Shown: positions 5,437 through 38,089 of the stretch, piece after piece | How positions within the stretch are numbered: the stretch's first letter is position 1 | Layout of the letters: each line of letters opens with the position of its first letter | From: Apostichopus japonicus | Lineage: Eukaryota > Echinodermata > Holothuroidea > Aspidochirotida > Stichopodidae | NCBI RefSeq assembly: GCF_037975245.1 | Contig: NC_092576.1 | Span: forward strand, 4,294,001 to 4,358,000 | DNA length: 64,000 nt | Direction of reading: 5' to 3' | Notes under the pieces: generated by a model | Databases searched by the model: none | What the model was told of the DNA's origin: nothing | Seen by the model: the letters and a program-made list of their open reading frames with translations, nothing else | Program-made: the position numbers and the translations under genes

Positions 5437-8400
5437 GTAATTATGAATTATATAGTTAATTTAAAGTAATAATTAGTAAAATACTAGTCCCGTAGCACTG
5501 GCCATTGTTTTCTTTTACTATTCCAACAAAGACGACAAGCATCAGTCGCGTTAACATTTGCTTCGCCCAATTTTAAAAGAGTAGTTAATTTAAATTAATT
5601 CCACGGTAAGTAAGAACGAGTTCTGTTCATATTTAAGAAAAGATTTTTTTTTTCAGTAATTCAACGGAATAAGATTTCTCTCCAAAAGAAATTAATATGA
5701 AGTAAATAAGAGTAGCTTATTTCACTGTTTCGAAAGTACTTACTTATAAATTAGTTTAAAGTAACCATTACAAAGCGACTTCCTGATGATATTTAACTTT
5801 TTCATTGAACTATATAGTGCAAAAGAACTGGACACGGCATAAACATACAATTTCGATTCATTAGGTATCGCTAGATTCAGATTTACCTCTTCGGATAGTG
5901 TTGAGAACTGTAAAACAGAGAATATGTTGCCTCAGGGCATTCTATAAGAAATTTTATTGGATTGGCCATTGCCAAAGAGAAACCATCATGACACTATCTA
6001 AGCGAAGCGCCACCTTCAGTTGCCAAAAATTGCCCCAGCTTACTGTAAATGTTACAAGAGACTAGGAAACATTTGGGTAATTAAGGAAATATGACTTTTC
6101 ACTTTTTCTCCAAGTAAAAGCTGAAAAATGAAAGATGTACGAGTGAATTCAACCCTTTTACGTTGAAATGTGGTCTGTTAACCAAGGCCTGGTTTTTGCA
6201 TTGTATAAGTACATGAAAAATATGACATTTGAAATATGTTGCGTATTTTCTCATTTATTTGCATGTAACATTTCTTATTTGTAAAATTCTGTAAATATAC
6301 ATTTATTCAGAAATGCAGGATACATAGCCATTTACATGGAATAATTTAACACAACAGTGTTACCTTGTTAATTCATAGTAAAACGAGCAGACATAAACAT
6401 TTTATCTCTATTCTGGTGGATTAGATGTCTTAAAAGAGTTTGCTGTTACAGATACTAACAAATTAAGCAATTTAGCCATAACATTCACTGAATTTTGAAT
6501 AAACCATCACTTACTAACAAAAGCAAAGATTTTTATCAATCAAGTTGACAAAACATAGCAAAAATTTAATATATGATTATTTTTGGTATGATTTTCCCAA
6601 AGCGAACATAAAATACAAGTATTTTTTGATAAATAGTCATTTTGGGGCAAAATGGATATATTGTACAATTTTTTTTGTATCTTTGGGGCGTTCCAATACA
6701 CCCCAACCAGTTAAGTGTAGCAATACACCTCTACTTGTAATAAGTTTTATCTTTGGGGCGTACCAATACGCCCCAACCAGTTAAGTGTAGCAATACACCA
6801 CTATGATAAATTGTATATATCTTTGGGCGTACCAGTACGCCCCAACCAGTTAAGTATAGAAATGCACCTCTATGATAAATTGTATTTATCTTTGGGGCGT
6901 ACCAGTACGCCCCAACCAGTTAAGGGTAGCAATAGACCACTATGATAAATTGTATATATCTTTGGGGCGTACCAGTACGCCCCAACCAGTTAAGTGTAGC
7001 AATACACCACTATGATTAATTATATACATATCTTTGGGGCGTACCAGTACGCCCCAACCAGTTAAGTGTTGAAATATACCACTATGATAAATTGTATATA
7101 TCTTTGGGGCGTACCAGTATGCCCCAACCAGTTAAGTGTAGCAATATACCACTATGATAAATTGTATATATCTTTGGGGCGTACCAGTACGCCCCAACCA
7201 GTTAAGTGTAGCAATACACCACTATGATTAATTGTATATATCTTTGGGGCGTACCAGTACGCCCCAACCAGTTTAGAGTAGAAATACACCCCTATGATAA
7301 ATTGTATATATCTTTGGGGCGTACCAGTACGCCCCAACCAGTTAAGTGTAGCAATAGACCACTATGATAAATTGTATATATCTTTGGGGCGTACCAGTAC
7401 GCCCCAACCAGTTAAGTGTAGCAATAGACCACTATGATAAATTGTATATATCTTTGGGGCGTACCAGTGCGCCCCAACCAGTTAAGTGTTGAAATATACC
7501 CCTATGATAGATTGTATATATCTTTGGGGCGTACCAGTACGCCCCAACCAGTTAAGTGTAGCAATACACCAACAAAATTGTGTGTGTTTCTCAAAACTAC
7601 ATATCTTCTTTTACACAAGTTGTTGCAAGAAAATAAGAGTACACACTGCCCAATCAATAGTATGTGTAAAACATAAGGTTTCCTAGTTATTCAGCTCAAA
7701 TTCTTTATCTATAGCTGCATATCTTTCTTTCAAGTCACAGACTTCCCTCTTTGGAAGGCGATTTTTATGGGTTAAATTAAAGTCCCAGAACATTAAGGAA
7801 TGGAAAGAAACTGATGGTGTGTATGGCTGCTTATTTCTTCCTTGGCCACAGTCTAGCAGTTTCCAGTCTCCAGTCCAGGATCCCTTCATCCAATGTAAAA
7901 TAACCTCATCCTTTTAAATTTTAGTGACTTCTCCAAAGTATGGTCGTGTGCTTGAATCAATGAGGTTTACGGCTGCTATATTCCCAACTTGAATATAGTC
8001 AGATACTTCAATAACTTCTTTAGCAAAGTTATAACATTTATATATATCACCACTCTGAAGATCTTCAACTCTAAAAGCAAGGAGCAGAAGGGCAGAAGGA
8101 CAGAAGATAGCGGTTCTTATTCTCCCTGTAACAATTATCCATTTGCAAAAACAGATCCTTCCCAAGAGTATCCTTGTGCTTCACTAGTGTCCACAAATTG
8201 CATGTAATGGTCATGTTTGAATCATGTTGGATATGCTTCAGATCAGTCATAACATATATGCAAACTTGTCACATGGACCTTTAGTGTGAATTAGGACACC
8301 TGAAAAGAAAGAGAAGAATGAATATATACTACTTCATTGACATGTATGATAAAGAGGTTGTTATTACTTGTTTTCTGCTATTAAATAAAGTTTGATAATT

Positions 8401-11400
8401 AACCTACTATGTGCTTTAACAAACAAAACAAAACAGTCACATAATATTTGATGGATACTAAGGCCATAATCTTTATCAGAACAACAAAATAAAGAACAGA
8501 ATTGATTTGACCTCAACCAAAACAATAGGAACACTAGACTTCTTGTAACCTTAGGTGTCCATCCTTATACTATTTATGAAGATAATCAAGCTTCCCCTCT
8601 TGAGACATTGTGTTGTAAAACAAGGCATCATACAAACAAACACCCTGTATAAACACCCACACACACATACTGCTCACGCACATACATACTGTACTATACA
8701 CCAACATGACATTACAATTTCATACTGTAGGATTACAATTTCTCGGAAACCAGAAAACGTGATGTTTACACTTATAATGACATAAACACTTTCCGTCTTG
8801 TGCACTCTTAGGTCACTTCACAATACCATGGAGGTAAAACAGACCTCCATGATAATATAGTACTGACCTGTTATGTGGATGTGGATGTTTTACATCCTTT
8901 TCACTCTTGACAAAATGTGGCAGATCAGTCTTTGATTGGTCCATTCCATCGACTATAAGGGTATTCAGTTCCAAAGAAACCTGGCACGCCTTAGTGCGGG
9001 CAAGATGTTACTGCTCTCCTTTTGACCTAGTAAAAATAGAACATATTATGATACAAAATAAACTCTTAACTGATACAGGGTTTACGATATCAGATAAGAA
9101 ATATTGATTTGAGTTTTGATCCAATATCATTTGAGAAATAATGTAAATGATATATGGGTCAATCCATGCCAAATCAACAGATTTTTGGGTCGATTCCACG
9201 TCGACCCTCTTAGAATCGCCTGGAACTGATATGGTGTCCTGCCATATGTCTCAAAGGATGAAATTGGGCAAAAAAAATTGAAACTTTTTCGTTGCTAGGT
9301 TACGACCCCGCCTAGCAACCAAATTAAAGTGGCTCATGAGAGTTACATCAGCCCTACAGAAACATGCTTGCGAGGGCAAACAGTGGTAACATTGTATCTT
9401 CATTCAAGGAGACCATGTAAAACAACATTAGAAACTATTGAAATGTTATTTATTAAAAGGGTTCTGTCTAGTACTCTTTGACTCCCTCTCACCCCCCCCC
9501 AGCACCCTCCCCATAGTGCACTATGCAGATTTGTATGCATATGTGACTGAATTTTAATACTGCAAAGAGACTGCATAAACATGCATTCAAGGTATACTGA
9601 ATTACTGTATTTGGTAAGGTAATCTTCTGCTTCAAATTGTCTGTATGCATGTAACTCACCCCCTCCCACCCACATCCTCTACCCAACCCTATATCAGATT
9701 AGAATATGAATGTGAACCAGTGCATACATACAGTGTGCACTATATATGTGTGTAAATGTTCAGTACAGTGTTATTTTTACACCAAGCACTAAATAAATAC
9801 ACACTGTCCACAATCATGTACAGTACACACTGTGTACTGGTCATTCCATTCAATACTGTGCATATTTCAATATCATTTTAAATATTTGCAATTTAGTGTA
9901 TGCTTTTGCTAATTCAATAATTAAAAGACTTTCAATAATTTAAAAAGAATGTTTAACCAGTACATAAATGTGCAGTGTGTACTGTACATGTTTTTGGACA
10001 GTGTTTATTTAATAGTAATTGGTGTAGAACAACACTGTACTGAACATGTACACACATATACAGTATAGTGCATAGTGCATATTTCAATGTCTTTTTAAAT
10101 ATTTGCAATGTAGTGTATAATTCTTTTGCTAATTCAATAAATTAAAAGACTTTCAATAATTTAAAAGGAATGTTTAACCAGTAAATACATGTACAGTGTG
10201 TATACTGTTCATTATTTTGGACAGTGTGTATTTAATAGTACTTGGTGTAAAATAACACTGTACTGAACATGTACACACATATATAGTGCACACTGTGGAC
10301 CATACCAATAATTCAGTATACCTTGAATGCATGTTTATGCAGTCTCTTTGCAGTAGAAGTCAGTCACATACTGTATGCATGTATACAAATATGCATAGTG
10401 CACTATGGGGAGGGTGTTAGGGGGGGGGTGGGAGCCAAAGAGTATTAGACAGAACCCTTTTAATACATTTCAATAGTTTTTAATGTTGTTAGCATGATCT
10501 CCTTGAATGAAGATATAATGTTACCACTGTTTGCCCTCGCAAGCATGTTTCTGTAGGGCTGATATAACTCTCATATATGCCACTTTAAGCTGCCCTCCAG
10601 AGCATTAATAACTTATATAAAATATGTTTTAGCACATTCTTTGCATCATAACTATACATATCTTACTAGTTTGTATTGAAAACCAAAAATAAAACTTTTA
10701 ATTGTGACCAAATTTGACCTTGAAATGCCCAAAATAGCCCAAAATATTTGTAAAATGTGATGTTTGAGGGTGCTGTTCACAGACATCGTTCGGCATATGA
10801 CCCTGGAAATGCAGTTTATTGGTAGCCCTTATGCTAGTGGACCACCTTCTTAATTGATAAGCACCTGTATGCTAATGCTAAGAAGTTGTTGTCATTTGAA
10901 TTACTCAAATCAGCTTGTGCAAGCATTTTCATACATATGAACGAGGTGATTTTCGCAATTTTCGAGTCATAAATTTGAGTAGATAACACAAAATACACAA
11001 CGTTTTTACTTGAGTTTCTAAAAATAGGAACAATACGCTCCTGAAAAAATGGTATTAAAAAAAATTGAAATATACCCACAGGCCCAAAATGGACCCCCAA
11101 TTAGGGCCAGAAGTGAGATTTCTTAAGTTTGAGGGCGCTGTTCATAAAACGTACCACCCGCTTGACTTTTTTTTTGCACTTTTCCCGTACAACTACTACT
11201 GGGCAAGGATCCTATGGAAAGTAAAACTCAAACATGCCTTTGCTTGTGAATATAGAGCACACTCAAAGTAGGGCCAGAAAAGACCCAGGCTATCTCATTT
11301 TCTGCCATTTTAGTTACTTGTTACGAAAAATTGAGACCAATCCAATGACCTTTCTCTGAACTTTAGGGTTTATCATCTTAGTTAGGGCTACTATATCCAA

Positions 11401-14400
11401 TTTGTAGTTCAAGAAAGTTTTTGAAAGAGATAAGTGTTAACTAGGAGCATCACTGACACACCCACACATATAGAGGACTTGAAGGAATAGATAGTCTTTC
11501 TATTGCTTTTGACTTCTGCAAGGATTCAAAAAGGAAAGCAGACATCAACTTTTAACTCTAAATTAGTAAAATATTTTGACTCACTTAAGATGATTAAGAT
11601 GAACTTCTTGCAATTGTCGGCATTCTTCATTTTTCTTTCCACTCCTCGTTCTTTCCGCTACCTCTTTCAAGTACCACCCACAGTAAACTCAGTCGTCTAG
11701 AAAAATATAATGTTGAAATACTTTAATTAAGCATTTAAAGTATAAGTTTTACTTCACACAATGGTGTAAAATTGAACTGCTTAACCTAATCAAGAAAAAG
11801 TTATGTAGTGATTAGTGATAGAGTTTTATTGTGTCAATTTGAACCATGTTGTTTTTATGAATACCCATAGAATAATGCAATGAGCATGTTGAATTTTGTT
11901 ACTAATTATAACTGAAGTTAAGCATTCTTTTAGGTACTTTAGAGAATTCCTTTAAAGGAGTATAGGGTGTTAAGAGTTGCTATTGAGAAAAGAACAAGTA
12001 AAGCTGTACAACATCTTCTCATGTTATTTATTAGACCAATTGATAGGGATGTTTGGAAATAAGACCCTAATCATTTTCCCGGACAGTTGAGGTAAATGTC
12101 CTCAAAGGTGGAAATTAAAACAATTAAAGAAGTTTGACCAAAGGTAAGCATATTTTAATTTCTGGCATATTTGGGGGAACTTTCTGAAAATGTCACTATC
12201 TAAGGGAGTTGTTCATTGACATTTCAGCAGAAAGCACTTTTACTCCTGATTTGAGTGGAGGTTGCAATCAAACTTATGTAACATGTTCTTTAGAACTTCT
12301 TTAAATCAAAATTTTTGACAATAATTCTAATGTTTTTTAAGGAATGATAATGCAGCTTTAGTGGCACACTAGCTGTGAGGTGTATTCTCTCCAGTATGTA
12401 CAGTACAGTCTTTGTGCTTGCTGAAGCTGAAGCTAACAATAGAGACACATGAATTTTTCTGAAGAAATGTTTAATGGACTGCACATGTAGTTAACTAAAC
12501 AGATTAAATGTCACTGGATTGTATGAAGTTAAAGCCTCCATAGTCAGCAAAGATAAAAGGATGCAATGCCTGTGGTTTTGACACCCCAGGCTAAAACCCA
12601 CCAATTGTGATTGATCAGCAGACCATGTACAGTACTTGAAAGTTATCATTTGTAATGTACACAGCTATTGCTTGTGTGAAATTGAATTTTGGCAAAACAG
12701 TCTTACAACAGCACTTTCGACCTCACAAGTTTCAGTATACTTTATCAATGTCTTCATGCTAGTTAATCAATTTAAAGCTACTAGCTATGAGGAATTTGAA
12801 ATTTTATTCCCCTTTTCCCATGCAATGTATGCAACAATAACTGTCATAAATCCATGCACATTCACAAGATAAAATAATTAGGAATCTTGAACTCTTCTAA
12901 AGATTTCCATAAAGTATTCCTTGGAAATGATGCTTTGTTCACCAATGCCAATTTCTATCATTTCCTTATTCATGCGTGCATGGAGAGAAGTCTTTGTGTA
13001 TGACACTGGAAGGTGCACTTCTGTTTTGTGGGGCATGTAATCTCCAATATGTTCAAATAAACACCTCATCCAAGCTAGTGCAAATGAAGTTTTTGTTCTC
13101 ATCCTTTTCTTGCCTTTATTGCCATGAATTGCATTTTTCTTGCCAACTTGAAATTATTTCAGACAATCTTTGAATAACTTGCTACTAATACCAAAGAACA
13201 TACAAAATGCTTTCTCACATACAATCTTCCCACAAATTACATAAATAGAACAAGATTTGTCTCAGGTGTGACATGATCTTTCCTGATGAATCCAAATCTT
13301 GTCCAGAGTGAATTGCTTTAGCTCAGTTTCCCTCACTTCACTAACCTCTAGAAAAGACTGTTCTAGGTCATCGTAAGAAAGCGATTTGATACAGCTACCA
13401 TTACAGCAATCAGATTGGAACATAGGCAGTGGATCAAATGCTTGATTGCGTCTCCTTCGTTTTTTCTCACTCCTGGTGAATAAAAAAGGTTTTGATCACA
13501 TGAAGAAATTGATGCAGAAAAATCTCTGGCAATACCAAAGCTACTGCTACTACTTCCATTTGAACTTATGTCAAGGTACAACTGCAGTGAATCATTTGTT
13601 GTATCTGGAGAAATAGTACTGATGTTGTGACTCACAGTGACTGCCCCATTCAAACGACAGTGAAAGTTTTGTTTTAGTATGATTATTTAAAGTTGGTTCC
13701 TCTTCCAAATTTTCCATTTCATTATCCATGCTCACGTTCCTTTTAAGTGTATTAGGTAGGGATGTATTTCCCTTGCTTTTGTGTGGAGATGAGAAAAGAG
13801 TTGGCTCAATGTCCAATTTGTCAGGATCATCCTCTTTACATTCTGACAGAAAACTGGTAATTTGTTAAAATTTGTTAGGTTTCCTTCACACATTTTGTTT
13901 CCCATTAAAGTGGAGCACAATGACAAATGAGCACAACTAAATCTTCATTTACTCAGCTGCACACCACAATAACATGAGCCAGGGAGCTGCTACTAGCAGC
14001 TCCCTGGTGAAACAGTATCCAAAGCCTGCATTGAAAGAGTAAGTCCTCAGAGCATGACCACTGCTCAACAGTTTTACTCCCTTTCTGTGGTTAACCCTGC
14101 TTTTGAAGACTGTATATATTCACTGTTGGTTGCTGCAGTATAGACTGCCTTACACTGTGATATGAACTGGCTAGGTGTCATATGATCCTTTATTGACACA
14201 CTGTTTGACCACAACCAAAGGGACAAAGTTTTCAGGTTTTATTTCCACAATGGAGTTGCAATCAGGCAAGACAATATTGTTGTGATTGATTGCTTCTGAG
14301 GTTAGTACTTTATGCAGACTGTGTAGCCCTGTTAAGAAATCTTGCACATCTGAGAGGTACTGTATGTGGATGTATGGAGGGAAAGGACTTCTCCAATGTC

Positions 14401-18867: not shown

Positions 18868-18898
<31 letters not shown>

Positions 18899-20091: not shown

Positions 20092-20150
<59 letters not shown>

Positions 20151-20173
20151 TATATATATATATTTATATATAA

Positions 20174-20220
<47 letters not shown>

Positions 20221-20234
20221 AATATATATTTATG

Positions 20235-20269
<35 letters not shown>

Positions 20270-23200
20270 CTGCAGCCTTATTTTCAATGAAATGCATCAT
20301 ATATTATTAATGCAGCTTATTTGTTATTCCCACCCATCCATACCTATACACGTACATGCATTGCATACATACATACACTCACGCATGCACACATGCATAC
20401 ACCATGGAGGGAAAACTGTTTTTACCTCCATGGAGGTTAAACTGTTTTTTACCTCCATTTTACCTGTTTTTTTTTTTACCTGTTTTTGACCTCCATGCAT
20501 ACACATACTGGTAGGTATATAAATGATCCTATTCGCCAAACACACTGTTTTCTTTATTTACAACTATAGTTCTAATTAAAGGCTAAGGCCATGGCATGTC
20601 GTCAACTTAAAAAAACGTTAACCTTCATTTCCTGTGTGAGAGAACGCAACGTGATAGGAATGATTACGTAATATCATCTTTCATCGGCCCTCTCGATGTT
20701 GACCGCAAACGTGGAGATGTTCAACCAGACTTCAAACAGGTGCGGACATCGAGCCCAGCCCAACTATTTTGTGTTAGGGGTTAAATATTTCTTTTGGGTA
20801 AAGTGTGAAAACAGATTTTTTTCCAGAGTTGTTGGAACAATTGTACGCACACAAAGTCGGCATATCTGCTAGATATAATTGATATGATTATATTTAGGTT
20901 TTCCATTTTATTTTATTTTCATTTTGGAAACTATGAGAGATTTGTTTTACTTAACCCCCGCGAAAAGTCGTACCACTCATTGCACTCAAAATATTGCGCT
21001 TCAGATAGGAACAATGATTTCCCTGCCAGTGCATTGACTTTTTCAAAGATAGTAAACGTTGGCCGTATCGGGTAAGCCCCGGTAGAAAATAGCGTGTGTG
21101 CGCTGCTTGGATGATATATACCCCCCACGAAAAGACTCACTGCATAGCTGTCGATCGCTGTTCATATTCTCTATTGCAATAACCAGGTTCGGACGTTTTC
21201 CAAGGTTTTCCAAGCCTGCCGCTATGCCCGGAGTTAACTCGTTGAAACACGGGTTCAAATTGCAGGGCTTATCTGCGGTTACAGTTTTTGCTCCACCTAT
21301 CCTTGCTTGAAGCAAGACCGCGTTCGTGGGACCGGGGTATTTGTTGTCTTTTTTCTACCACAAACATCCGCACTATTATTTGATATCGTAAATTTTCACT
21401 GTCGTAGTTGCATACACATACGTATAAGTTTGTTAGACCAGGGAGTTGTTCAGACCACCAACGTATTTATACCCTGACAAGGTTAGACTGCTCATGTACG
21501 GATGCACCAAACGCAAAATCGTAGAGCCGAAGTTGCGAAAAAGTTCGAAACGCCTAAATAATAATTTTATAAAATGACGAGACCAAGAAATTGGTGTGTG
21601 GCAGAGGAAGACTCAAGATTTTTCTTTTTTCGGACTTGTCCGAAGTCTACTTTTGGAACCAAAGAGCCCTTGTCAACAATTACATGAAGATTCGAAATAT
21701 ACCGCCGATCCCAAACAGCATTAAGGTGAGGAAAATTTTTGGACTTATTTCCGTATAATGAAATATATTTTGTGTTAAGAATAACCAAGTGGAGTTTTTG
21801 GTTCTTGCATGTATATGGGTATGCTTTTAAAATAAATTGAAAGTGCATAGCCAATCGCCCCAAATCATAGCACGCTAAAATTGCTAGGCGTTTTCAAAAA
21901 GCAGTGGCGTAGGAAGGTACTTTTGAGTGGGGGGGGGGGGGGGCTGAAGACTGATGGCCGGCCTGGGGTAGGGGTCTAAGGAGAGGGGGTGTCCCCCTCC
22001 CCTTTGGAATTTTTTGCATTTCCAGGTAGCCTCAGATGCAATTTGGTGCAATATAGCACACTTCAACACCTACTCCATTTTGTAAACTTAATTTTGTATT
22101 TTCACCAGGCCTTAGATGCAATTTGGTGCTCCAAATGAGATTTTTTTCTCATTTGGAAATGAAAAAGGGGTTTTCTGACTTGCGAAGCGGGGGGGGGGGG
22201 GCGGAATGATACTTCCGCCCCTCCACATTTTTCACTGGGGGAGCTGAGCCCCCCCCCCAGCCCCACGGTTCCTACGCCCTTGCGGAAATGAACAAGCGCT
22301 TCTCCACAGAAAACTGCCAGATCATGAGAGGGATCCAATCACTGAATCCAGAGAGTATATAAGGATTTCCTCTCGATGGAAAGCGTCGAACAGTTTGGCC
22401 AAGTTTTCGATGCGAGCATGGAAGACCTCAAACACGAGGTTCCGCAAGCACAGAGACTCCTCCAGCGCTAGTTCGCTAACACGGGAGAGACGCCACCACC
22501 CAACCTTCTGTCGCTGACATCGTTTCTGGAGCCATATAATGATGTCTTTGCAGAGCTGTTACGCCTTTGTAAAATTGCCATTGCGATTCCGGTATTGAGT
22601 GCTGGATGCGAGCGCAGCTTCTCAACATTGAAGCTCGTCAAAACCTATCTGCGGAACACAATGTCAGACACTCGCCTTAGTGATCTCGGAGTTTTACATA
22701 TCGAAAGGGAACTGTCCGAGGGGATCAATTTGGAAGAATTCGTCGCAGACAGTCATCAGAATAGGCGAATTAACCTTCGCTAAACTGTTTGAGTGAGCCC
22801 TAGACAGTGCAAAAGAAGGGCCCGAAGGGGGAATGATAACATCTTTTGTTGATTGGGGAGGGGGGGGGATGGTTACACTCCCAGGCCAGTCAGATATCAT
22901 GCTGATCATCTTTGAATACTGACAGAAAGAGCATATAGTCTATTCAGATTTTTAAAGAGAACTATCGATGACTTTTTCAGTGATCTGTTTTATCGTTAAT
23001 AATACCTATGTGGAAATAACATAAAACGTCAGCTAACTAGAGTGACCATCTGTGCCCTACATTGCTGACACAATACCCGATTTGCCACAGTTTGTCATGC
23101 AAACTGTTTGGTATGTCTTTTGTACTAGCTTAGTCTGCCCCACCAATCAGACCCTTCGCCCCCTCCCTTTGCCCCCCCCCCCCCAGATGAAAAAGTCTGG

Positions 23201-26200
23201 CTACGCCACTGAAGCACGCACAGCGTAAGTAAATTAATGATTATGTTAATTCATGAAAATACGATAAATCTTTCAATAGTGCAATCGTTAACTTGTCTGT
23301 GCTTGTTGATTAGTCATTATGGCTTATATACATTCTCGTTAAAGTTTGAAATGCAATGCAGATACGGTCATAAGCAATGTATTTCATATATTTTCCGAAC
23401 ACATTTGACAGTTCATGAAATGTCATTAAAAGTTGCACATCGTGCAATTTTTAAACATTGTTATAGTTTTATAAACCTTTTTACACTTTCCTTATTTATC
23501 CAAGTGAACCAAAAACGGATACTGGCTATTAAATTTATTTATATTATATTAATATCATTATAATTGCTTTTATGAAGAACACTGATTTGTGTACCATTCC
23601 GCTTTGAGGAAATACAGACAATTTTCAGATACATTTCTTTAGAGCAATCATTTGCATGTTTATGTGTTTATGTTAGAAAGCAAGGCACATCCTGTTGTGA
23701 ATTCATCTCATAGTTTACCTTTCTTGAATTGTCAAATATTTGGCTGCATTCCTTGTAAGCCGGATACAGCTTTGCAATTCTCACATATCTATTTATTATT
23801 ACATATCAAATATAAGGAAGTATTACTCATTTCCGTGACGTGATTCAATTCGCAATCCCGTTGCTAGAAGCTAATGTTATTTTACTCAGTCGCAGAACGG
23901 TCCAACATACCAAAGCATAAAGTTACCTCAAACAAAGTAATTCATTTTGTGCGTTCATACTGCGAAATCCTGTATTTGAATGTTTGTCAACAAAAGGTCA
24001 CTCATAGATTTAGACATTTTTTTTAACAACAATAATATTTAATTTTTCAACAAATGGAGTCTTTTTTACAATAAGGGTGCACTTTTGAGGGTAACGTGCT
24101 CCTTGTGCACCCCCTCCCCTCCTCGCTTCTACCGCCTCTGTATGTGTCTTAACAAAACCGGTGGGTGTGTTAAGAACAACTCCTAGATCATATATAGAAT
24201 GCCAAATCAAAGGTGCACAGTCAATCGCTTCAAATGGAGTAATAACATGTTTGAGGTCGCTTTACGTTTGCATTACAGATATAAATAATTTGCTTTCTCT
24301 TTCTTTGTTGCAGGCGATTGGACCACAACCAACTCCAGTCACTTTCTTCCAACATCTTCGAAAACTTAACAAACTTGAAATACTTGTAAGTACATTCCAT
24401 CAGCATAATATGTAGTTGATGTTACCATAGCTCTCAGTGGCGTAGGAAGGTACTTTTGAGTGGGGGGGGGGGGGCTGAAGACTGATGGCCGGCCTGGGGG
24501 AGGGGTCTAAGGGGAGAGGGTGTCCCCCTCCCCTTTGGATTTTTTTTGCATTTCCAGGTGGCCTCAGATGCAATTTGGTGCAATATAGCACACTTCAACT
24601 CCCACTCCTTTTTGTAAAGAATTTTGCATTTTCACCTGGCCTTAAATGCAATTTGGTGTTCCAAATGAGATTTTTTTCTCATTTGGAAATGAAAAAGGGG
24701 TTTTCTGACTTGCGGAGCGGGGGGCGGAATGATACTTCCGCCCCCCATATTTTTCACTGGGGGGGCTGGCGCCCCCAGCCCCCCGGTTCCTACGCCCTTG
24801 TCAAAAAGTACTTTCCTGGAAGCATTCACTCTCCATTTGTTCTCAAATATTCTAAGTGAACACCCAAAGCCATTCTTACCAAGGAAGTGATACTTCCCAT
24901 GTTCGTACACTACAGTACTTGCAAGTACAACTTTCTCAGACAAATTATTCCATAACCCTCTGAGAATAAAAAGGAGTTTTGACAAATATATGGTACTTAT
25001 AACTTCTGTAGTTTAAGACATTGATCTCTGGTAATTCTGCTTGGCAAACCTGAAAACAAGGTCAGTGAAGGATAAAATGTCTAAACCATACCATTCTTGA
25101 AAACCCGAATCAAGTCACCGCGTAATTAACCGACCTATAACCTCCATTGTGGTGGGTTAACTGTCAGAATGCACATTATCAGTGTTTTTATCTTCATGCA
25201 GAACTGACATCAACAGTGAATACTATTGTTCTCTGACTCGAGTCAAAGGACGCTTGAACCGCAGTGTGCTAATGTAACTGCCAAGCGTAACTTATTTGTG
25301 ATTGCAGGTGTCCAACCGCAGTGTAGACAAGCATTTAACGTTATACATTGAATTCGAACTTCTTCATGATCTGTCGTCATATTTTGTGTATTACTATTTT
25401 TAAGTTGTTCATGCAAACACATAATGAACACCCTATACATTGCTCTAGATTGACTTTCAAGAAAAAACCGTCGGTGTCATGTAGTGTGGCTTGTCTACAA
25501 CCCAAACTGATTAGAAAAGATATTTCAATCAATTCTGACTTGATTGTGAGTGAAAAAATGCTACTTGAAGCAAGTGCAATAACAAGCAACGCTGACAGCC
25601 ATTTAACAAGTCAACGAGTGACACTCCTGACGGTTTCTACTACTACAATCTGTTTCTGTGATATTTTCCGACGAACAAGAAAACGGCGACCACAGTCGCG
25701 TAGTAACATACAAGTGCTACCTCCTTAAGCTTATATTATGTACGTACGTGAATTTGACAGAAAACTTGAGGGTCAAAGGTGAAAAAGTGAAGTACACTAC
25801 ATGATGCGAGTTAGTATTAAACGTTAGGCCTACTTCAAGTTGATTCAATGACTAGGATATACCGGCATTTTAAATTTATTATTCCTCTCGACAATTTACG
25901 GTACAATTAAAGGCAGGAGCCCAGGAAGTTATTGACCAAGCGATTTTGCCAATTTTTTGACAAGTTCGGTTCGTTGTAATACGCCTCAAATAGAACTTAG
26001 AAGAAAAGGGGCCTCTACGGGCTCTAACTTAGGCCCTAGGTAGCGTACACACTATTTCTAGACTGAAGTCTGTGTAGGCTAGGTCACAACATCAAAGGTG
26101 AGACCTAATTTCGTGCAGCTATTTGATTAATTCGATTGATGCTTCACGTTCCTTAACCTTCAGCTTTCATTTAAAAAAAAAACGTGTGTCTTTGTTGTTT

Positions 26201-29200
26201 GCACCTACAAATCTGTTAAAATTTCGTAGAAAATAACATTGTCACGTCCAACTCCCAACTTAGCAAGAGCTAGGCCGTAAGCCTATTTAATCAGTGAAGC
26301 CAGGATAGTGTTAACATATCAACATTGTTAAAACGTGAAGTGCTCCTAAATCCTAATTTCGTTCCTGTTGTCGGCTACTCCAAAATCCTAAAATTTTATG
26401 GCAACTATATAATTAGTTTTGAATCAATATAATATAGTAACAAGGAATATTATTGCTTCAGAGACTGACATGCACCAGTGCAGTGAAATGCTTACAGTCT
26501 TCAATTTCATGGGGGTGAAAGCCTCATGTGTACCCCTTCTCCCCTCTGGGTCAGACATTGGGCCAAGATTGGGGTTGATATATTGGAGTCCAAGGAGTCA
26601 AAGGACACTAGCATATTATCATATTCAGGTTTACTAACTGCTCTTTTCCACTTTAAAACAGACCTTCAACATCAGGAAGTAAAGAGAAAAGAAAGGCTCA
26701 GCACAAGTTACCTGTGCTTCACAAAAAGAGGAAGAGTAATAAGGATCAGCCAGTTGTCAGCCCTTTAGAATTCATCAAGAAGGAAGTCAATGCAGCATTC
26801 TTAGGTGAGAACCCTTAGAAGCTGTCAGGTACGGTAGCAGTACAATATACTGCCTCAGGAATTGGAACTGTTGTGGTTTTAGAACAGGGGGCCCCTACTA
26901 GCCAGATTGAGCATGCCAGACAATCTAATCTGGCCCACCAAAAAACAAAGGGAAAAAAAACCCAAACTTTTTGGTTCACCAATTTACTGAACAAAAAAAA
27001 AAATTGAAGAGAATTTGAATAAGCGTTAATTTTCAACACGAAAAAACATTGATCAAAGTTTGTCATAGATGCTAAAACAATCATCTTCCATTTTCAGCAA
27101 TCTATTTTTGGCCTTTTGTTAGTCAAAATTTCTTCCTGTGGCTTCCATGGTGGGCCCGCATACTGTATGAGTAATATTCAGCAGCCCACAACTAAACGGA
27201 CAGTAGGCAGCTGTTAAATTCATTTTACACCAGTTCCTGTGCAGTGTCCTTCATACTGAGCCATCTGTATGCCTCCAGCTACTGCATGCCCATTAAGAAC
27301 TGCCTCAACTGTTGACTTTTCACCAGAAATTTACAACATCAATAGAAGTATCAGTTTTTATTTGAGTGTTATCGGGGAGGGGTCAGAACCCCATTAATAA
27401 TGTGTTCATTAATTGAACATTGCTTCTCAACATACTTTAACAATCATTATAGTCACTGTGTACATTTGGTTTGAATAGTATTTTTAGCTTTACAAAGTTT
27501 ACGGAAAACCTTTTGCATACCTACAGTGTGGCATTTCCCTGTCAGTTGATGTTAGCTTTGCAGAAATTTACTTACCATTGTTTTTACTTCTCCACAGGTG
27601 TTGCAAATATTGACATAGAAAATCTAGAAGTTGGTTGGAAGTTGAGAGAAGTGAATGTGTAATTTCTCACCAAACTAAAAGAGGCTATGTTAGATTTTAA
27701 CAACCACAATATCAACCACTGACTGTTATAGCAACAACTTTGGAAAACTTGGAGAATTTTTCAGAACCCACGGTGAGTAATCAGCACTTGATTATAAAGT
27801 GATTTTTATAATGGAGTGCTTCATAATTGTTTATCAAAAACCATGCAGCAGTTACTGCTTGTGTGTGCATATGTGAGAGAGAGATGCCTTAGCTCAAATT
27901 TTGAAAACTTTGATAATTCAACAAGTGCAATATGCATGAAGTTCATACTTGGTAGAAAGCTACCCCTTAGCAAATTCTCAGCTGCAATTGTTATTTAATT
28001 GCCAGTGGTCAACCGTAAAAAACCCTATAAATGACCTTACTGAAGTAAAGGTTAAGTGAAATTAGTATGCTTATCCCTCAACCGAGTTCTTACCACTTGC
28101 TGTTACTTAGTACGTCAAAAATTGTTTGAGGTCCACACCACCTAAAAATCTGAAACTTTGTTAACAGGTTATCTCACCATGTACAGCTTACATAAAGTTC
28201 ACACTTTGAACAATTAGAAGAATGTATTCGGTATCTACCACCTTAGTAAATTCTTCACTGTTATTGCTTTGGGAGGGGCCAAAGGTCATATGAGATAACC
28301 AATGGTCTAAACCTGAAAACTTTGTGAATGAGCTAACCCAAAGAATAAAGCTACATAGAATGTCAAATTTGTTCCTCTGATTGAATACTTGCCATCTATA
28401 ATGTTAACTTTTTTTTAGGTCAAATGTCATTTGAGGTCAATTTTAGTTAAATTCTGAAGACATATCTCACTAAGTACAGCTTGCATGAAGTTAATGCTCA
28501 GTATGAAGACACTCTTAGTAAATACTCAGCTGATAGTGTGTTGGGAGAAGTCAAGGTCATTTGAAGTCACTAGCAGGGTTTTCGTTAGTAGCCGGGACCC
28601 GGGGCAAATGACTCGCTTACTGCACGTACAGGACCCGGCTACTTTGCAACGCTCAGTAAAAAAAAAAAAAAAATTTAAATTAAAAAAAAAAATTAGACGA
28701 AAAAAATCGAGAGAAATAAATACTATATAAATACTAAATTCTATCACAGACCTAGTTGGGTATTTTTTGGCAGTAAAATCCTACTCACTTTGTAGGTACC
28801 GTAGACCTATTATCATTTTGTTATGATGGCACTTCATTTAATGCAGCAAGTGCGTCACACCCTTGCTAAGTTCGGTTCAGTGGCATAGCTACCTCCCTAG
28901 GCTCCATGACCCGAGTGTTAATAAAAAAATTCAGGAGAAAAAAAGAAAAATAGGACAGAAGAAAGGGGTGATTGGGAGGGGGCAATATCATTGACCAAAC
29001 AACTGTATATTGCACCATTTTGCATCTAGAGACTTTTTAAATTGCAATTTTCCGGCAAAGGGGAGGGGGAGGGTTAGACCCCTCCCCCATGTCCGCGTAC
29101 AGACAGTCCCGCCTACTTTTCAACTTGACCCATCTACTTCATTTCTCAACAAAAACCCTGTTTTAGTGGTCAACAACTGACAACTTTTCTAGCTGAAGAA

Positions 29201-32200
29201 GTGAAGTTTTGGTAAATTTCAAATTTGATAGGAATTAAGCATTTGTCTTCTATTTTTTTGGCTGTTTCGGTCAAGGTCACTCAAGGTCAGTTAATTTCAG
29301 TCTGAAAAACTTCTTAAACATGGTACCTCACCATGCACATGGCAATATTAGCCCTAGACAAGAAGAACAACATGAACAGATCTTTTACTTGACATGTGGA
29401 TTCCTACACACATCATAATATTAAAAACCTTTGAAAACATGATAACTCAGGGTTGTCCACACCATATCTTTGAGTACACATTTAGTTCTCCTTTGCTAAT
29501 AGTTGCAAGAGATTTTTTTTTCATTTCACTGTGGATCCCATGTACTCAGTAGAACTCTCCCCTCCAATGCCCTACAATAACAATAGGCAAAGGAATCACT
29601 AAGCCCTGTGGCTTTCTGTTTGCATGTCAATTACACCTGATCTTTGAGGACAAAAGTCTGACATTACGCTACTTTGACTTAAGTTACTGATATATTCATT
29701 TTCACATTTTGTAACAAATTTTTCTTTCAGGCAAATGGATACCATTATGAAGTTATTGGTGGCATCCACAATCCAGACAAGAATGTAAAGATACAAAACT
29801 TTGGTTAGCAAACAAGCACATCAAAATAGGGGAAACCAGGCATCAGATGAGCATTGAGGTAAAGGTGACTACTATGAATGTTGTTTTTGGTTCCTTGCTT
29901 TAGCAAAAGGAACCTATGCAGTCAGGTTGGCGTGTGTGTGTGGGTGCGTGTGTCTGTGTGTGTGTGCATCTGTGACGCTTGCTTGGGTACGCTCTATCTC
30001 AATAAGGGAAAGTTGGATTGATGCCAAACTTGGACTATAGATCCGCCATATGGAGAAGGTGTGCCCTATTGTTTTTGGTGCCCACAAAGGTCACCAAAGG
30101 TCAGTTATGGTCAAAAAACCGAAAATATTAAACCTGCAATAACTCCCAGTGCCAATGTGTGACAAGATTGATATTGTGGGACAAGTTGTGAACTGGTTAG
30201 GGGAGCATTTCAAACTTAACGGTCATGTGATCCGAGGTCACCAAAGGTCAATTAATGATAAAAAACTAGTATTTTTGTGATAACTTGAAAACAAAATGTC
30301 CGTTAGGGTTGGGAGTTGCTTCAATGTTATCCTTTTGTTGACCCGCATCTGGGTGACCCTTGACCTCAATTTGACCTCTGGTGACCTTTACATGTTTTTG
30401 GGGATTTTTACAGTTTTGATGCTATTTTCAGATGTCAAAGGTACCTTCTGATCATAAATGTCATCAGGTTGACCCCGTGTGACCTTTATATGCGAGGTTA
30501 TATGGGGTCAAAGTTTTTCGGTCGGAGTTAGGATGGTTGTACAGACTTGTCGTTTTGTTTTTTGGAATCAGGAGATTAAACTACACCTGAAACCAAGGTC
30601 AAAAGGTCAAAGGTCACATTAGAAAAAATGTGCTTATTTTGGGAGGAAACGAGCAAAAAAGAAAATGTTTGGTTTTGATGCTAGATTTGGATCTCAAAGG
30701 TACCTTCCGATCAAAAATGTCAATTGGTTGACACCCGTGTGACCTTCGTGTGCGAAGTTATACGAGGTCAAAGTTAATTTTCAGACATTTAATGCAATAA
30801 CTCCCAGTTCCAAGGTGTGACATGGTTGATATTTTTGGACAAGTTGCAAATGGTATAGGGGAATATTTTCAAACTTAACGGTCATGTGATACGAGGTCAC
30901 CAAAGGTCAATTAATGTTAAAAAACTAGTATTTTGGGGATAGCAAATGGGCAAAGAAAAAAATGTTTGAATTTGTATAGTTTGATGCTCTAATTTAGGTC
31001 TCATCAATCAAAAATGTCAATAAGTTGACCCAAGGTGACCTTTGTATGTTAAGTTATATGAGGTCAAAGTTAATTTTCAGACATTTAGTGTAATAACTCC
31101 CAGTACCAAGGTGTTACACAGTTGATATTTTGAGACAAGTTGCAAATGGTATAGGGGAATATTTTCAAACTTAATGGTCATGTGATCCGAGGTCACCAAA
31201 GGTCAATTAATGATAAAAAAGTAGTATTTTTGCGATAACTTGAAAACAAATTGTCCGTTAGGGTTGGGAGTTGCTTCAATGTAATCCAATTGTCGACCCG
31301 CATCTGGGTGACCCTTGACCTCAATTTGACCTCTGGTGACCTTTTCGTGTTTTGTGGATTTTTACAGTTTCGATGCTATTTTCAGATGTTAAAGGTACCT
31401 TCTGATCATAAATGTCAATGGGTTGACCCCCGTGTGACCTTCGTGTGCGAAGTTATATGAGGTCAAAGTTAATTTTCAGACATTTAATGCAATAACTCCC
31501 AGTGCCAAGGTGTTACAAGGTTGATTTTTTTGGACAAGTTGCAAATGGTATAGGGGAATATTTTCAAACTTAATGGTCATGTGATCCAACGTCACCAAAG
31601 GTCAGCTAATGTTAAAAAACTAGTATTTTTGGGGGGGGGGGAGAAAATGGGCAAAGAAAAAATGTTTGAATTTTTACAGTCATGCTCTATTTAGGTCTCA
31701 CCGATCAAAAATGTCAATTGGTTGACCTCCGGGTGACCTTTGTGTGTGAAGTTATGTATACAAGTTCAAAGTTAATTTTTTGACATTTAATGCAATTAAA
31801 TCTCAATGCCAAGGTGTGAAATGGTTGATATTTTGGGACAAGTTGTGAATGGGGTGGTGGAACATTTTAAAACTTAAAGGTCATGTCATCTGAGGTCACC
31901 AATGTTATCATATCTGTTGACACGCTTGTAGGTCTCTTATATTTGTTACATTTCCGACGCCATATTTAGATCTCAAAAGTGTCTTTTGATCAAAAATCTG
32001 ATCACATTTTGTGATCACAAAAGTGTTGTCTATAGTGTTGGTTACTTTATGGGAACATGTAGGACCACAATTACTTGGACTATTTGAGCTCAATCTTGCT
32101 TGATAATATTATGTGTATTGTCATATACCCCAAGCAAGGAACCACAGTGCCCTTGGGCTCTTGTTATAGAAGAATTTCTGCCGAGCAGTTATTCATCTCA

Positions 32201-35200
32201 TTCCTCCATATTGTATATTCAGGTTGCAATGACCTATGCATTAAGACATTGAAAGTGTGTATGAAAAGTCCTTGTCTACACATAACACATAACTTTGTGT
32301 TGTGCACACAGAATCGCTCTCTTACAGTATGTGAATTTTCAAATAATTGTTATCTAATCACTCTCATAGGGAGGATTAGGTACAATATTGTAGTTCCTTT
32401 GCCAGTTGGACCATTAACAGTATTACGCAACAGTTGTTAGTTTTCCCAATAGGGGTCATTCATTGTGGGGTATTGCATGGTCACCGGAAGTGTTTGACTG
32501 AGGGAGGGGTAAAAGTTGTCTGTGTGGGGTGTCCAATTTTATGTCAAACAGACCTCTTAAATGGCTGTGTTGATTTTCTTAAAACTTGGTATGAAGGTGT
32601 TTTAGGGTTAAAGTCTATGTCTAGCAGACCCCCCAGAAACATAGGTCACATGTCACATCAAATTAAATTCAATGTTTTAATTCAATATTACTCCAAGGGG
32701 ACACATTACATTCAAATGGAATCTTCACTTGTATAATGGGAACAACATGTAGGCTACTAATACAGGCAGACATGTGACCTCTGTCATAGTATTAATCAGA
32801 TTGTAGAGGACAGCAGAGTGATAGCACTGCAATCATATGACAGTATAGTCCTGCTAACTTATCATATCAAAAAAAAACATTTGCAGTCTTTGTTCATTTG
32901 TTTTTTTACTATCAATGCAACAGATAAAAAATAAATAAAATGGTTAGACTGTCAGTGTAGAATAAAGTTTTATTTCTCTCTTTTTTTCTGAAGATGACAC
33001 AGAAATGCTCACACTGAGTCTGTTTGGTCTGGCCATTGCGTTCAAGAGGAAAACCATTGCAAGGAAACTTTGATGGGATGATGGCACAGAACTTACTGTG
33101 CCTATTGTTGCTAGGGATGATCCTAGATCACAGAGGATGAAAAAAATGTGTATAGCACTGATTAAAAGAAGCGTATTGAGTTTGGTGAAGGTCAAAGGTC
33201 ATTTGGGGACAACAGGGAGGTTAATTGTCTTGTAGGGTATATGTGTTCATCTTTAGGAAGTGGCAACACTGGAACAGCCACATGGTCTTCTACTCTGCAA
33301 ATCCTAAAATGCTTGTTTTAAGTGTAATGGAAATAAAAAGGGGGGGGGGGTGGGAGGGTTGGGTAAGGTTACAGTGACTTCTCTTATTATTGTACTTTTT
33401 TGGTATAAAATTATTAGTAGGGGTATCAGTATGCCCATTAGAGCAATCTGAGGGTCTGAATAGTACATCCTTCAGAACTGCATTGTAAGCCACTTATTGT
33501 TGTTATTAATGATGTAATTTCTTATTGCTAAATGACACTCCGAGCAGTAGGGGGTGTATCGGTACGGACTTCAGAACTGCATTCTTAGCCACCTAATGGT
33601 GTTATTATGTTATTTCAGAACTAATGGTGTAACTTCTTGGTGCTAAATGACACTCCAACCATTAGCGGGGCGTTTTGGTACACCTCTCAGAACTGTTTTG
33701 CAAGCCACTAAATTTTGTCACTTCTTGGTGCTAAATGACACTCCAACCAGTAGCGGGGCGTATTGGTACGCCCCTCAGAACTGTATTGTAAGCCACTAAA
33801 TGTTGTTACTTCTTGGTGCTAAATGACACTCCAATCAGTAGCGGGGCGTATTGGTACGCCCCTTAGAACTGTATTGCAAGCCACTTAATTTTGTTACTTC
33901 TTGGTGCTAAATGACACTCCAACCAGTATCGGGGCGTATTGGTACGCCCCTTAGAACAACTGTATTGCAAGCCACTAAATTTTGTAACTTCTTGTTGCTA
34001 AATGACACTCCAACCAATAGTGGGGCGTATTGATACGCCCCTCAGAACTGTATTGTAAGCCACTAAATTTTGTAACTTCTTGTTGCTAAATGACACTCCA
34101 ACCAATAGTGGGGCGTATTGATACGCCCCTCAGAACTGTATTGTAAGCCACTAAATGTTGTTACTTCTTGGTGCTAAATGACACTCCAATCAGTAGCGGG
34201 GCGTATTGGTACGCCCCTTAGAACTGTATTGTAAGCCACTACAGTAAATGTTGGTACTTCTTGGAACTAAATGACACTCCAACCATTAGCGGGGCGTATT
34301 GGTACGCCCCTTAGAACTGTATTGCAAGCCACTAAATTTTGTTACTTCTTTGTGCTAAATGACACTCCAACCAGAAGCAGGGCGTATTGGTAGGCCCCTT
34401 AATGGTGTTACTTCTTTGTGCTAAATGACACTCCAACCAGTAGCGGGGCGTATTGGTACGCCCCTCAGAACTGTATTGCAAGCCACTAAATGTTGTTACT
34501 TCTTGGTGCTAAATGACACTCCAACCAGTAGCGGGGCGTATTGGTACGCCCCTCAGAACTGTATTGTAAGCCACTAAATTTTGTCACTTCTTGGTGCTAA
34601 ATGACACTCCAACCAGTAGCGGGGCGTATTGGTACGCCCCTCAGAACTGTATTGTAAGCCATTAAATGTTGTTACTTCTTGGTGCTAAATGACACTCCAA
34701 TCAGTAGCGGGGCGTATTGGTACGCCCCTTAGAACTGTATTGTAAGCCACTAAATGTTGGTACTTCTTTGTGCTAAATGACACTCCAACCATTAGCGGGG
34801 CGTATTGGTACGCCCCTTAGAACTGTATTGCAAGCCACTTAATTTTGTTACTTCTTGGTGCTAAATGACACTCCAACCAGAAGCGGGGCGTATTGGTACG
34901 CCCCTTAATGGTGTTACTTCTTTGTGCTAAATGACACTCCAACCAGTAGCGGGGCGTATTGGTACGCCCCTTAGAACAACTGTATTGCAAGCCACTAAAT
35001 TTTGTAACTTCTTGTTGCTAAATGACACTCCAACCAATAGTGGGGCGTATTGATACGCCCCTCAGAACTGTATTGTAAGCCACTAAATGTTGTTACTTCT
35101 TGGTGCTAAATGACACTCCAATCAGTAGCGGGGCGTTTTGGTACGCCCCTTAGAACTGTATTGTAAGCCACTAAATGTTGGTACTTCTTGGAACTAAATG

Positions 35201-37918
35201 ACACTCCAACCATTAGCGGGGCGTATTGGTACGCCCCTTAGAACTGTATTGCAAGCCACTAAATTTTGTTACTTCTTTGTGCTAAATGACACTCCAACCA
35301 GAAGCGGGGCGTATTGGTACGCCCCTTAATAGTGTTACTTCTTTGTGCTAAATGACACTCCAACCAGTAGCGGGGCGTATTGGTACGCCCCTTAGAACTG
35401 TATTGCAAGCCACTAAATTTTGTAACTTCTTGTTGCTAAATGACACTCCAACCAGTAGCGGGGCGTATTGGTACGCCCCTCAGAACTGTATTGTAAGCCA
35501 TTAATGGTGTTTCTTCTTGGTGCTAAATGACACTCCCTTGCAGTTGTGGGGTGTATTTGTTTCACTGATTCACTTTTGTACAGGGACAAGAGGTATTTTT
35601 CTTCCTTTTAATTCATGTAAGAAATTAACGTACTAAATTTCAGTTTATGGTCATGTAGATAAAATATAACATGAAATACATAAGTTGGTACAAACAAAGA
35701 ATAATTTTCTCTTTGTGTTATTTTTTGTCTCAAATTTATGTATCTGCAGTATGATTACAATGCATTTGCCTTTTTAACTCACATTTTGAAGGTTTAAAGA
35801 CAATGACAGTCATAGCGTAGATGTTTCCCTTGTATATACCATATTTTTATACCCGGATGCAAACGTCATTAAAAGCAATATCATTTCTGGTAAATTTATC
35901 AATGTTGAACAGAAAGTTTTTTTTTTCTTGGATAAAAGTCAGGTTTAAATAGTTCCTAGAAACCCTAAATGTTTCCTAGCCTCTTTTACTTACCCAGGCC
36001 TTGTAAGTTGCATATAAACATGTCTTTGTATTGAGATCTCATTTTTTAGAAACTTACTCTTCCAAAAGAATGGGGTATATTAGAAAAATTGTGTTCAGTA
36101 AAATCATTTTGTAGGGGAAAAATAGGACTTAATGTTACTTTATAAGCTCTGGTTTATTAATTTTTTAACACTAGTAATTGAATGTATAAAAGCACGTTAC
36201 GGCATTCTGATGGTAGCCGTAGCCTTTATATACTGATGGGAATCCATATGGGGAATTAAGTGTATATTAATTGTTAGGTATGTGCTATCATTAGTTGTTT
36301 TTCATGTCACCTTCTGGGACATAATATGGTGTGGGATGGGGAAATGAACTCAGTAAACGGGCCGTTAAGGGGACTGGGGAGGCCGCGGCGCCCTCTAGTT
36401 ATTATATTAACAACGCCCTGTATTGCCCTGCACATTAATCATACATGCGGCGTTCCCTCTTTCGTAAGATAGCCTCGAAGTTCGCTAATCATTTAGTTAG
36501 TCAGTTCTTCCTTTACTAGCAGAAAACTACATTTATATTTAAATCAACAACAACAATTCCTACTTTTCGTTTCAGCAAAATCTCAAGAGTTTTTACCATT
36601 AGTTTACACCATCTCTCATTACCCGGAAGGCGATCGTTCTTCGACCGGTTACATTTACGCCATCGATAGGTTAGACTTCGGTGGTGAATTACAAGTCACA
36701 AAAGACGACAAAGATCTATCCAGTGTTGCCGTTGAGACTGGTCAAATTATTGCTGATGGAGTCAACTTTGGAGTTTATTTCCGTTTACGTGCACAAGAGC
36801 GATATGGTGCATACAAAGGAACATATACTTATGAAGATTTTGTTTTCATCACTCACACATTTTTGAAACCAAAATCAGGTTAGTTAAAAGAAACCCATAC
36901 CGTTTCAAGAGTGTTATCTTGAATTTATACATTAATCGTAAGGAAATGTATTCCATTGATCGATTAATCTTCCTTTTTTGTCTGTTAATGATTTAAGCCA
37001 TGTTTAACTCTTATAACAATTGAACCGAAATACGTATGGTCGTTTACGCAGAGAAAATAACTTTTTTCTTTTTTTTTAAACAAAACAGATATTCTGAACA
37101 CAAGGGGTGTATATACAGTCCATATTTATCCTGAATCACTGACTTCTGACAAATTAAAGGAGGAAATACAGATTGGCGTTGGATGGTCTCCAGGTTGTAG
37201 TAGGATTATTTGGTGGAAAGGAAAGAAGCGAAATATTAACACCGGACCTAAACTTACCCTGAAATCTGTCCAGGATGCTGGTCTCTATACCATAGGGAGA
37301 CCAAAACGAGTGAAAAGAGGATGGTTTGTCCAAATCCTGGTAACTGCTTCACGTAAGTTCATCTACGCTTCACATGTTCAGGTATAACAATGAATACAAC
37401 TTTGTTATAAACAACGAACAGACCGTCTGTGGATCTAATGTGTTAGAATTGTAGGATGACAGAAAGATAAAGATTGAAACTGGTTAACATAGCACTTGAT
37501 TTGACTCCATTTGATTTAACTATATGATATAAATATGATATATATAATTTATATATATATATATATATTCACATGTTTGCAACAACAATATAAATTAACT
37601 AATTGTGCTACAATAACTTAAAATATATAAACGAAGTTTAAGATAATCAAGTACACAAAAGTGAACACAAAAATGTAAGAAATGTAAATAATTACAACGA
37701 CAAAAGTGTGTTAAAAAACGAAACTAATAAAACGGTTATTATTTCATTGTAATACATTTTGCCCAATCATAGAAGTTTGCTGTGGTTTTAAGTGGCGCAA
37801 GCTACCATAAATTTCGATTGATCATGTAATTGTCAAGACCTTCAGAGTTACAACAAGTGAGGAAAAGTTGCCTTTAAAATTAACTTGAATATATTAATAC
37901 ATAATTCTAGACAAATGG

Positions 37919-37956: not shown

Positions 37957-38089
37957 CCTCTCGACATAAAATCAGTGTCCATGGCCTAGTTGGTTAGGGT
38001 GTCCGCGTACAAAGCGGAAGGCCCCGGTTCGAATCCCGGTGGAGGCTGGACGTTTTATCACTGTTCTTGATTTTTAAACTCATTACGAT

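Follow-up and report, generated by a model that had tools for sequence, protein, structure and literature searches.

Mirrored arrays with a common palindromic core at the two ends of a giant DNA transposon in Apostichopus japonicus

Introduction

In a 64-kb stretch of the Apostichopus japonicus genome (hereafter the window; C16:4294001-4358000, in an assembly of 671.6 Mb with contigs numbered C1, C16 and so on), two tandem arrays of different period carry the same 20-bp palindromic core, and the question that this locus raises is why two dissimilar repeats should hold on to one palindrome. The initial annotation took arrays A and B for two different satellites and suggested that the core was a dimeric protein site, a hairpin used in amplification or the footprint of a small element. 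Here we report that both arrays belong to one giant DNA transposon of the cut-and-paste type, with terminal inverted repeats (TIRs), and occupy its left and right subterminal regions, so that neither the two satellites nor the small element is upheld; the element is about 30 kb long. We consider it probable that the core of these mirrored arrays serves as a recurrent binding site for a dimeric protein that the element encodes and that pairs the distant ends. The dimeric protein site is hence the best reading of the three first offered, with the binding and the element-encoded origin of the protein being what we infer.

Results

Two arrays share one palindromic core

The two arrays of the window are as follows.

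6678..7571, plus strand: array A, subterminal on the left; period 70 bp; 13 cores whose centre, read from the left end inward, is CCAR
33628..35536, plus strand: array B, subterminal on the right; periods 88 and 66 bp; 22 cores whose centre, read from the right end inward, is YCAA

With up to three mismatches allowed, the core GGGGCGTAYYRRTACGCCCC matches the window 35 times: array A accounts for 13 of these (6685-7545) and array B for 22 (33667-35479). No match arose in 100 dinucleotide shuffles, which confirms that a palindromic core is common to both arrays. Tandem Repeats Finder described array A as 12.8 units of period 70 and array B as period 88 with 66-bp variants; decayed units lie to the left of array B at about 33418 and 33551. 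On the plus strand the core centres of array B are mostly TTGG, with three TTGA, and the copy at 6755 in array A does have a CCAA centre that makes it the exact inverse of the B core, as claimed at the outset. All 16 arm bases are identical between the A and B core consensuses.

The spacers behave differently at two levels. Single A and B monomers align no better than shuffles outside the core (P 0.34 direct, 0.06 inverted), and at this level the earlier statement that the rest of the monomers does not align stands. It does not stand for whole arrays, which align in the inverted sense only (best E 3e-6), mostly via similarly spaced cores, nor for a second A-type monomer found in other copies, A2 (core-TAACCAGTAGC...), which has AACCAGTAGC in common with B. 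A series leading continuously from one monomer to the other, which the initial annotation had set against its own proposal, is therefore seen in part, in the intermediate A2, and the shared AACCAGTAGC makes an old common origin of the A and B monomers likely. A decayed secondary core is supported in A (P 0.002) and receives no support in B (P 0.23).

The arrays lie inside the ends of one transposon

Comparison of the window with two copies on C1 gave sharp limits of homology at 6056 and 35985 (BLAST edges within 3-5 bases, exact ends read), and the junctions define the following features.

6056..35985, plus strand: window copy of the giant TIR transposon, 29,930 bp in length; the left end is the array A side; homology to the two C1 copies stops here
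6052..6055, no strand: left target-site duplication TTAC, by junction reading
35986..35989, no strand: right target-site duplication TTAC, by junction reading
6056..6119, plus strand: left TIR AAGAGACTAGGAAACATTTGGG..., 72% over 68 bp with the right end
35922..35985, minus strand: right TIR AAGAGGCTAGGAAACATTTAGGG... (read on the minus strand), an inverted match to the left end

The termini read AAGAG...CTCTT and the TIRs are imperfect. The target-site duplications (TSDs) of the window copy and the two C1 copies are TTAC, GTAT and TAAC, and the three have a common backbone, mostly of 96-100% identity outside the arrays, together with their own nested insertions. The cores are placed about 0.5-4 kb inside the element ends, away from the cleavage site.

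Genome-wide we scored 40 of 45 candidate left ends (94-100%) and 40 of 56 candidate right ends (89-100%). Thirty-four of the 40 left ends are paired with a scored right end in the correct order and orientation, and these pairs comprise 32 at 22-45 kb (largest 45.2 kb; 11 pairs at 23.3-25.0 kb), one at 16.6 kb and one at 124.5 kb, the last on C1 and so long because of one nested 94-kb insertion. Junctions were read in 32 of the 34 paired copies, leaving out C8:11.10 and C17:23.30 Mb, and an exact 4-bp TSD was found in 27 (a script found it in 23 of 29, reading by eye added one more of these 29, and the window copy and the two C1 copies all have it). Because three C16 copies share one flank and thus represent one insertion, this corresponds to 25 of 30 insertions. 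The duplicated sequences vary (TTAC, GTAT, TAAC, TATT, CAAT, GAGT and others).

We give next to no credence to two unrelated satellites that share the core by copying or convergence. The different periods and spacers would suit such an origin, but the arrays occur as ordered, mirror-oriented A/B pairs bounded by TIRs and 4-bp TSDs, and the paired ends and TSDs rule out independent satellites. A Helitron-type 3' hairpin is likewise ruled out, since the element has TIRs and TSDs and its palindromes are internal.

The scored left ends are unevenly spread: the window's own contig C16 (46.0 of 671.6 Mb) has 13 of the 40, against 2.7 expected (P 1.5e-6), and the excess persists after merging of the three same-flank copies (P 3e-5). 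It could be due to local hopping, segmental duplication or a special chromosome.

Three further loci deserve mention. The 94-kb insertion in the C1 copy (C1:3189780-3283969) is within a CA repeat, its edges carry inverted TACCTTATGGGG / CCCCATAAGGTA, and it is perhaps another giant element; no frame of at least 200 amino acids was seen within any single piece analysed, and a 16-bp overlap at its edges was rejected as a target duplication, as it lies in the CA repeat and gives no clear duplication. At C22:17151022-17182695 a left and a right end of the family stand 31 kb apart in inconsistent orientation, which may reflect an inversion or two partial copies. At C19:16.536-16.539 Mb, next to TA repeats, a short derivative has the left subterminal region (from window position 6292) and A-type monomers running directly into array B and the right end; recombination between cores was rejected as the origin of this diverged end, because the A/B joint falls outside the core.

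The core belongs to the element

The exact core GGGGCGTANNNNTACGCCCC is found at 922 places genome-wide, its reversed control at none, and 888 of the 922 continue as in A or B (419 with AACC, the A type; 469 with TNA, the B type or A2). The placement of 200 of these 888 was compared by hand on listed coordinates. All 100 AACC cores among the matches listed (of 419) lie within 2 kb of a left end. Among the 100 TNA cores listed (of 469), 87 are at most 4 kb from a scored right end, 11 are at 24-25 kb from the left end on C6, whose right end is not among the 40 scored, and two are A2 units in a left array. With 888 of 922 places carrying an A or B continuation, the core finds no support as a general genome motif or host site. 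The exact core pattern also occurs in 25 stretches of IMG/VR, with one palindromic place each. A literature text search with the core half-sites gave, among the papers listed, none recognisably on this element.

A DUF7869 gene ends beside array A

The window copy contains a broken minus-strand gene that ends beside array A and has one exon matching Pfam DUF7869.

8074..8268, minus strand: DUF7869 exon remnant (LFLQMDNCYRENKNRYLLSF), 65 amino acids; PF25273, E 2.4e-17, 63.6 bits, cut-off 26
7686..8159, minus strand: C-terminal exon remnant of the DUF7869 gene, interrupted, beside array A; tblastn with exon L128:7704-8201, E 4e-65
8816..9007, minus strand: exon remnant with LIVDGMDQSKTDLPHF, a motif also present in the C22 copy; by itself it matches no Pfam family
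12881..13864, minus strand: probable N-terminal exons of the DUF7869 gene, by position and strand; no Pfam match

Likeness also entered into the assignment of the exons at 12881-13864 as probable N-terminal ones. DUF7869 matches number 53 genome-wide, and 43 of these fall within 8 kb of 37 of the 40 scored left ends; six of the others belong to a sister family (see below), one (C17:18.72 Mb) is 21.6 kb from a right end and three are elsewhere. The fuller copies at C22:19.56, C8:11.10 and C12:24.98 Mb match over three exons. In translation the C22 copy reads LIVDGMDQSKTD, LQLDNCYRENKN and GHTHEDVDQ, the last two being present also in the C8 copy, and LIVDGMDQSKTDLPHF, LFLQLDNCYRENKNRY and FLPVGHTHEDVDQMF, of which the C8 copy again has the last two. 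These motifs look like a D, D, E/D triad, and the DUF7869 protein is a candidate transposase of the element. With the C-terminal exon as query, the PDB yielded a weak match to NIPBL (E 1e-4). Literature text searches for DUF7869 by name and for the strings GHTHEDID, DGMDQ and ENKNRY found no paper in the library searched.

A second gene runs toward array B

A second gene, on the plus strand, runs toward array B.

27546..27799, plus strand: second-gene remnant, homologous to L126:5103-5360
29704..29882, plus strand: second-gene remnant, an exon ParB-like by eye only; no Pfam match, no PDB match
32966..33124, plus strand: last second-gene exon remnant found, beside array B; the C8 copy exon is weakly methyltransferase-like

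The second-gene exon of the C8 copy (L127:2374-2670) has a weak methyltransferase match (PHROG E 0.08) and no Pfam match. A Pfam search with ten presumed coding frames gave no match. Frames were scanned in part, namely 63 of 120 of at least 60 amino acids in the window copy and 10 of 51 of at least 75 amino acids in the C8 and C22 pieces, and in these no PolB, integrase, capsid, protease, herpesvirus or piggyBac domain exceeded its cut-off. Pfam and PHROG hits below threshold, such as those to Fer4, cytochrome b, a virion protein and a coronavirus spike domain, were taken as chance.

A sister family keeps the array and changes the site

Two sister DUF7869 genes, at C17:24.71 and C16:42.32 Mb, are 99% alike over the stretch compared, and after each comes an array of period 93 bp, which has 15.7 units on C17. 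The sister monomer can be aligned with the A monomer over a large part of its length, a result equalled by 3 of 1000 shuffles. Centred on ACC|AG, as in the main family, it holds an imperfect dyad, GGGTTTACCAGCGAACC, in which 11 of 16 pairs match (P 0.001 with the centre fixed there). An inverted counterpart of the sister end AACGTGGTTGCAAATACTT, differing at one position, stands 26.4 kb off on C17 and 27.4 kb off on C16, the far ends being at C17:24687012 and C16:42347263; with up to two mismatches the end sequence matches the genome 24 times, against 16 for a control. At C16:12452826-12453746 inverted sister-family ends are 0.9 kb apart, a possible miniature inverted-repeat transposable element.

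The sister dyad bears on a rival reading, in which the palindrome works not as a duplex protein site but as a hairpin, of DNA or RNA, during amplification of the array or processing of the ends. Single strands of the main family's core fold strongly (A -11.2 kcal/mol, z -6.6; B -9.5 kcal/mol, z -3.6), as a hairpin would need. The sister dyad folds poorly (-1.5 kcal/mol, z 0.5, over a slightly offset stretch; -4.0 over the full 32 nt), yet its array is regular, and the cores of the main family are well inside the ends and not at the cleavage site. The poor folding in the sister family favours duplex recognition, and we think a hairpin quite improbable.

The same family bears on a host factor. 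The core might be bound by an insulator, silencer or transcription factor of the host, with control over the two genes running outward into the arrays, and the gene remnants are suitably placed, that of DUF7869 (7686-8159) abutting array A and that of the second gene (32966-33124) adjoining array B. However, the A or B continuation of nearly all exact cores, and the family context of the 200 places compared among the matches listed, leave no host use visible, and the sister family retains the array position but alters the site. A host factor is in our judgement rather unlikely.

Nested insertions and neighbouring sequence

Two internal stretches of the window copy are missing from other copies.

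20733..21339, no strand: a stretch of about 608 bp, probably a nested insertion; missing from the two C1 copies and the C16:36.59-Mb copy
22472..22783, plus strand: hAT dimerisation-domain remnant (PF05699, E 2.3e-10); the two C1 copies share the stretch around it, which the C16:36.59-Mb copy lacks

The 23.3-kb copy at C16:36.59 Mb is without window positions 21901-24798 (the hAT remnant inside), about 28573-29164 and about 29888-32160, and these three stretches account for most of its size difference. Since its stretch is missing there, the hAT remnant is probably a passenger. Positions 30135-31902 hold degenerate, tandem-like repeats of 300-400 bp, which are in the two C1 copies and not in the C16:36.59-Mb copy, and 9324-10588 is a nested palindromic element with 86% inverted arms that flank two 223-bp repeats.

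Elsewhere in the window, 49387-52991 and 60349-63998 form a 3.6-kb direct duplication of 95.8% identity. Repeated blocks of about 83-95% identity (1-4811, 40249-42552 and 45312-48537) lie near weakly EGF-like exons and perhaps arose when parts of a receptor-like host gene were duplicated in tandem. A tRNA match at 37975-38047 (Rfam 43 bits, gathering 29) was the only RNA family found in the window.

Discussion

Our proposal for the core is as follows. Dimers of an element protein, probably the transposase, would occupy the dyads of both arrays and draw the distant ends together over 20-45 kb, comparable to the recognition of En/Spm subterminal repeats by TNPA (PMC2613891). The mirrored placement of the core would follow from the need for one and the same protein to be loaded at either end if the two are to be paired. 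Each end would have amplified its own stretch around the site, so that the spacers would differ while the palindrome stays.

In monomers selected by core likeness (at most five mismatches), which biases core divergence low, the core arms differ from consensus less than the sequence outside, at 0.021 against 0.106 differences per site in A (115 monomers, nine left ends) and 0.043 against 0.127 in B (143 monomers, 10 right ends). The B block CTAAATGACACTCCAA equals the core in conservation (0.045, and 0.004 in the first three copies), and the array A flanks TATCTTT and AACCAGTT are also well kept. In the array B consensus of the C8 copy there are changes beside the core and none in it, and the CTAAATGACACTCCAA block carries two. 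The expectation that the core is better conserved than its spacer hence holds against the average spacer and fails against CTAAATGACACTCCAA.

These figures also bear on the reading that the core is the inherited leftover of one ancestral inverted end repeat, kept by chance or homogenisation with no binding protein. The AACCAGTAGC common to A2 and B, the alignment of A and B in the inverted sense only and the decayed second core of A, though not of B, are all consistent with such descent. Homogenisation should however have retained the spacers too, yet the A and B spacers are no more alike than shuffles while the arms agree at 16 of 16 bases, and the core diverges less than the average outside even though it contains CpGs. 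We regard a mere leftover as unlikely and prefer the binding site.

Several points nevertheless weigh against the binding site of a transposon protein. Besides the selection of monomers by the core itself, the equal conservation of CTAAATGACACTCCAA means that the core is not the sole constrained part of B, and the likeness of most copies to one another (ends 89-100%), together with array homogenisation, leaves few mutations that are independent. The P value of the sister dyad becomes 0.10 when any centre is allowed. Thirty-four of the 922 exact cores were not located, six of the 40 scored left ends are unpaired, and five of the 32 copies read are without an exact TSD (C17:36.32, C20:18.64, C4:5.08, C16:42.86 and C4:2.53 Mb). 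Finally, the window copy retains one of the three DUF7869 exon matches and is therefore not autonomous.

What had been a puzzling pair of satellites becomes the two handles of a giant transposon, whereas a satellite catalogue without the element ends would list the arrays as two unrelated families. A possible function is indicated for a domain of unknown function, DUF7869. The dozens of copies and the sister family offer a test case for how the ends of very long DNA transposons are found and paired, and for joint change of a binding site and its protein.

Comparison with known transposons

One parallel in layout is with the CACTA transposons (En/Spm, Tam1, soybean Tgmt*), described as large TIR DNA transposons with many short subterminal motif copies recognised by the element-encoded TNPA; the motif is a cis-determinant of transposition and differs among families (PMC2613891). 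Our element likewise has subterminal motif repeats at both ends. It is unlike CACTA in its head-to-tail 70/88-bp arrays built on a 20-bp palindrome and in having a DUF7869 gene in place of tnp2/TNP1, and its AAGAG termini and 4-bp TSD, as against CACTA termini and a 3-bp TSD, exclude membership.

Sola elements have 4-bp TSDs (AT-rich in Sola2 cases), variable TIRs, a DDD transposase and in some cases a length above 15 kb (PMC10741241, PMC3627910). The 4-bp TSD is a likeness by description, and the subterminal palindromic arrays are a difference, being unmentioned in the passages on Sola consulted (PMC10741241, PMC3627910). Oyster Helentron-type elements are described as carrying dispersed short satellite-like arrays (PMC7492417). 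Ours too has short satellite-like arrays on a mobile element, but it has TIRs and TSDs, and its two arrays mirror each other at opposite ends.

Polinton/Maverick and Teratorn are described as giant TIR elements of animal genomes (PMC6431247). The present element resembles them in being a giant TIR element of an animal genome. PiggyBac and Teratorn target TTAA and Polintons have a 6-bp TSD; the TSDs of our element vary and are not TTAA, which excludes piggyBac/Teratorn, and no PolB, retroviral-like integrase, protease or ATPase was seen in the frames scanned, which argues against Polinton/Maverick. Ginger is excluded by the ends, which are AAGAG...CTCTT and not 5'-TG...CA-3', with no Gypsy-like integrase domain in the same frames. 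The TSD of hAT elements is 8 bp; that of our element is 4 bp, and the hAT remnant at 22472-22783 is in a stretch missing from the C16:36.59-Mb copy.

Collectively, by the tests made, this is a TIR transposon that is not CACTA, Ginger, hAT, piggyBac or Polinton, as judged by its duplication, ends or genes found. Tentatively, and with the balance of probability somewhat against it, we suggest that it may represent an unnamed superfamily of giant animal DNA transposons, with a DUF7869 transposase, family-specific end-array dyads that co-evolve with the protein (GGGGCGTA-CCAG-TACGCCCC in the main family, GGGTTTA-CCAG-CGAACC in the sister) and a second gene beside the other array. If so, the second gene may help to load, mark or spread along the CpG-containing sites.

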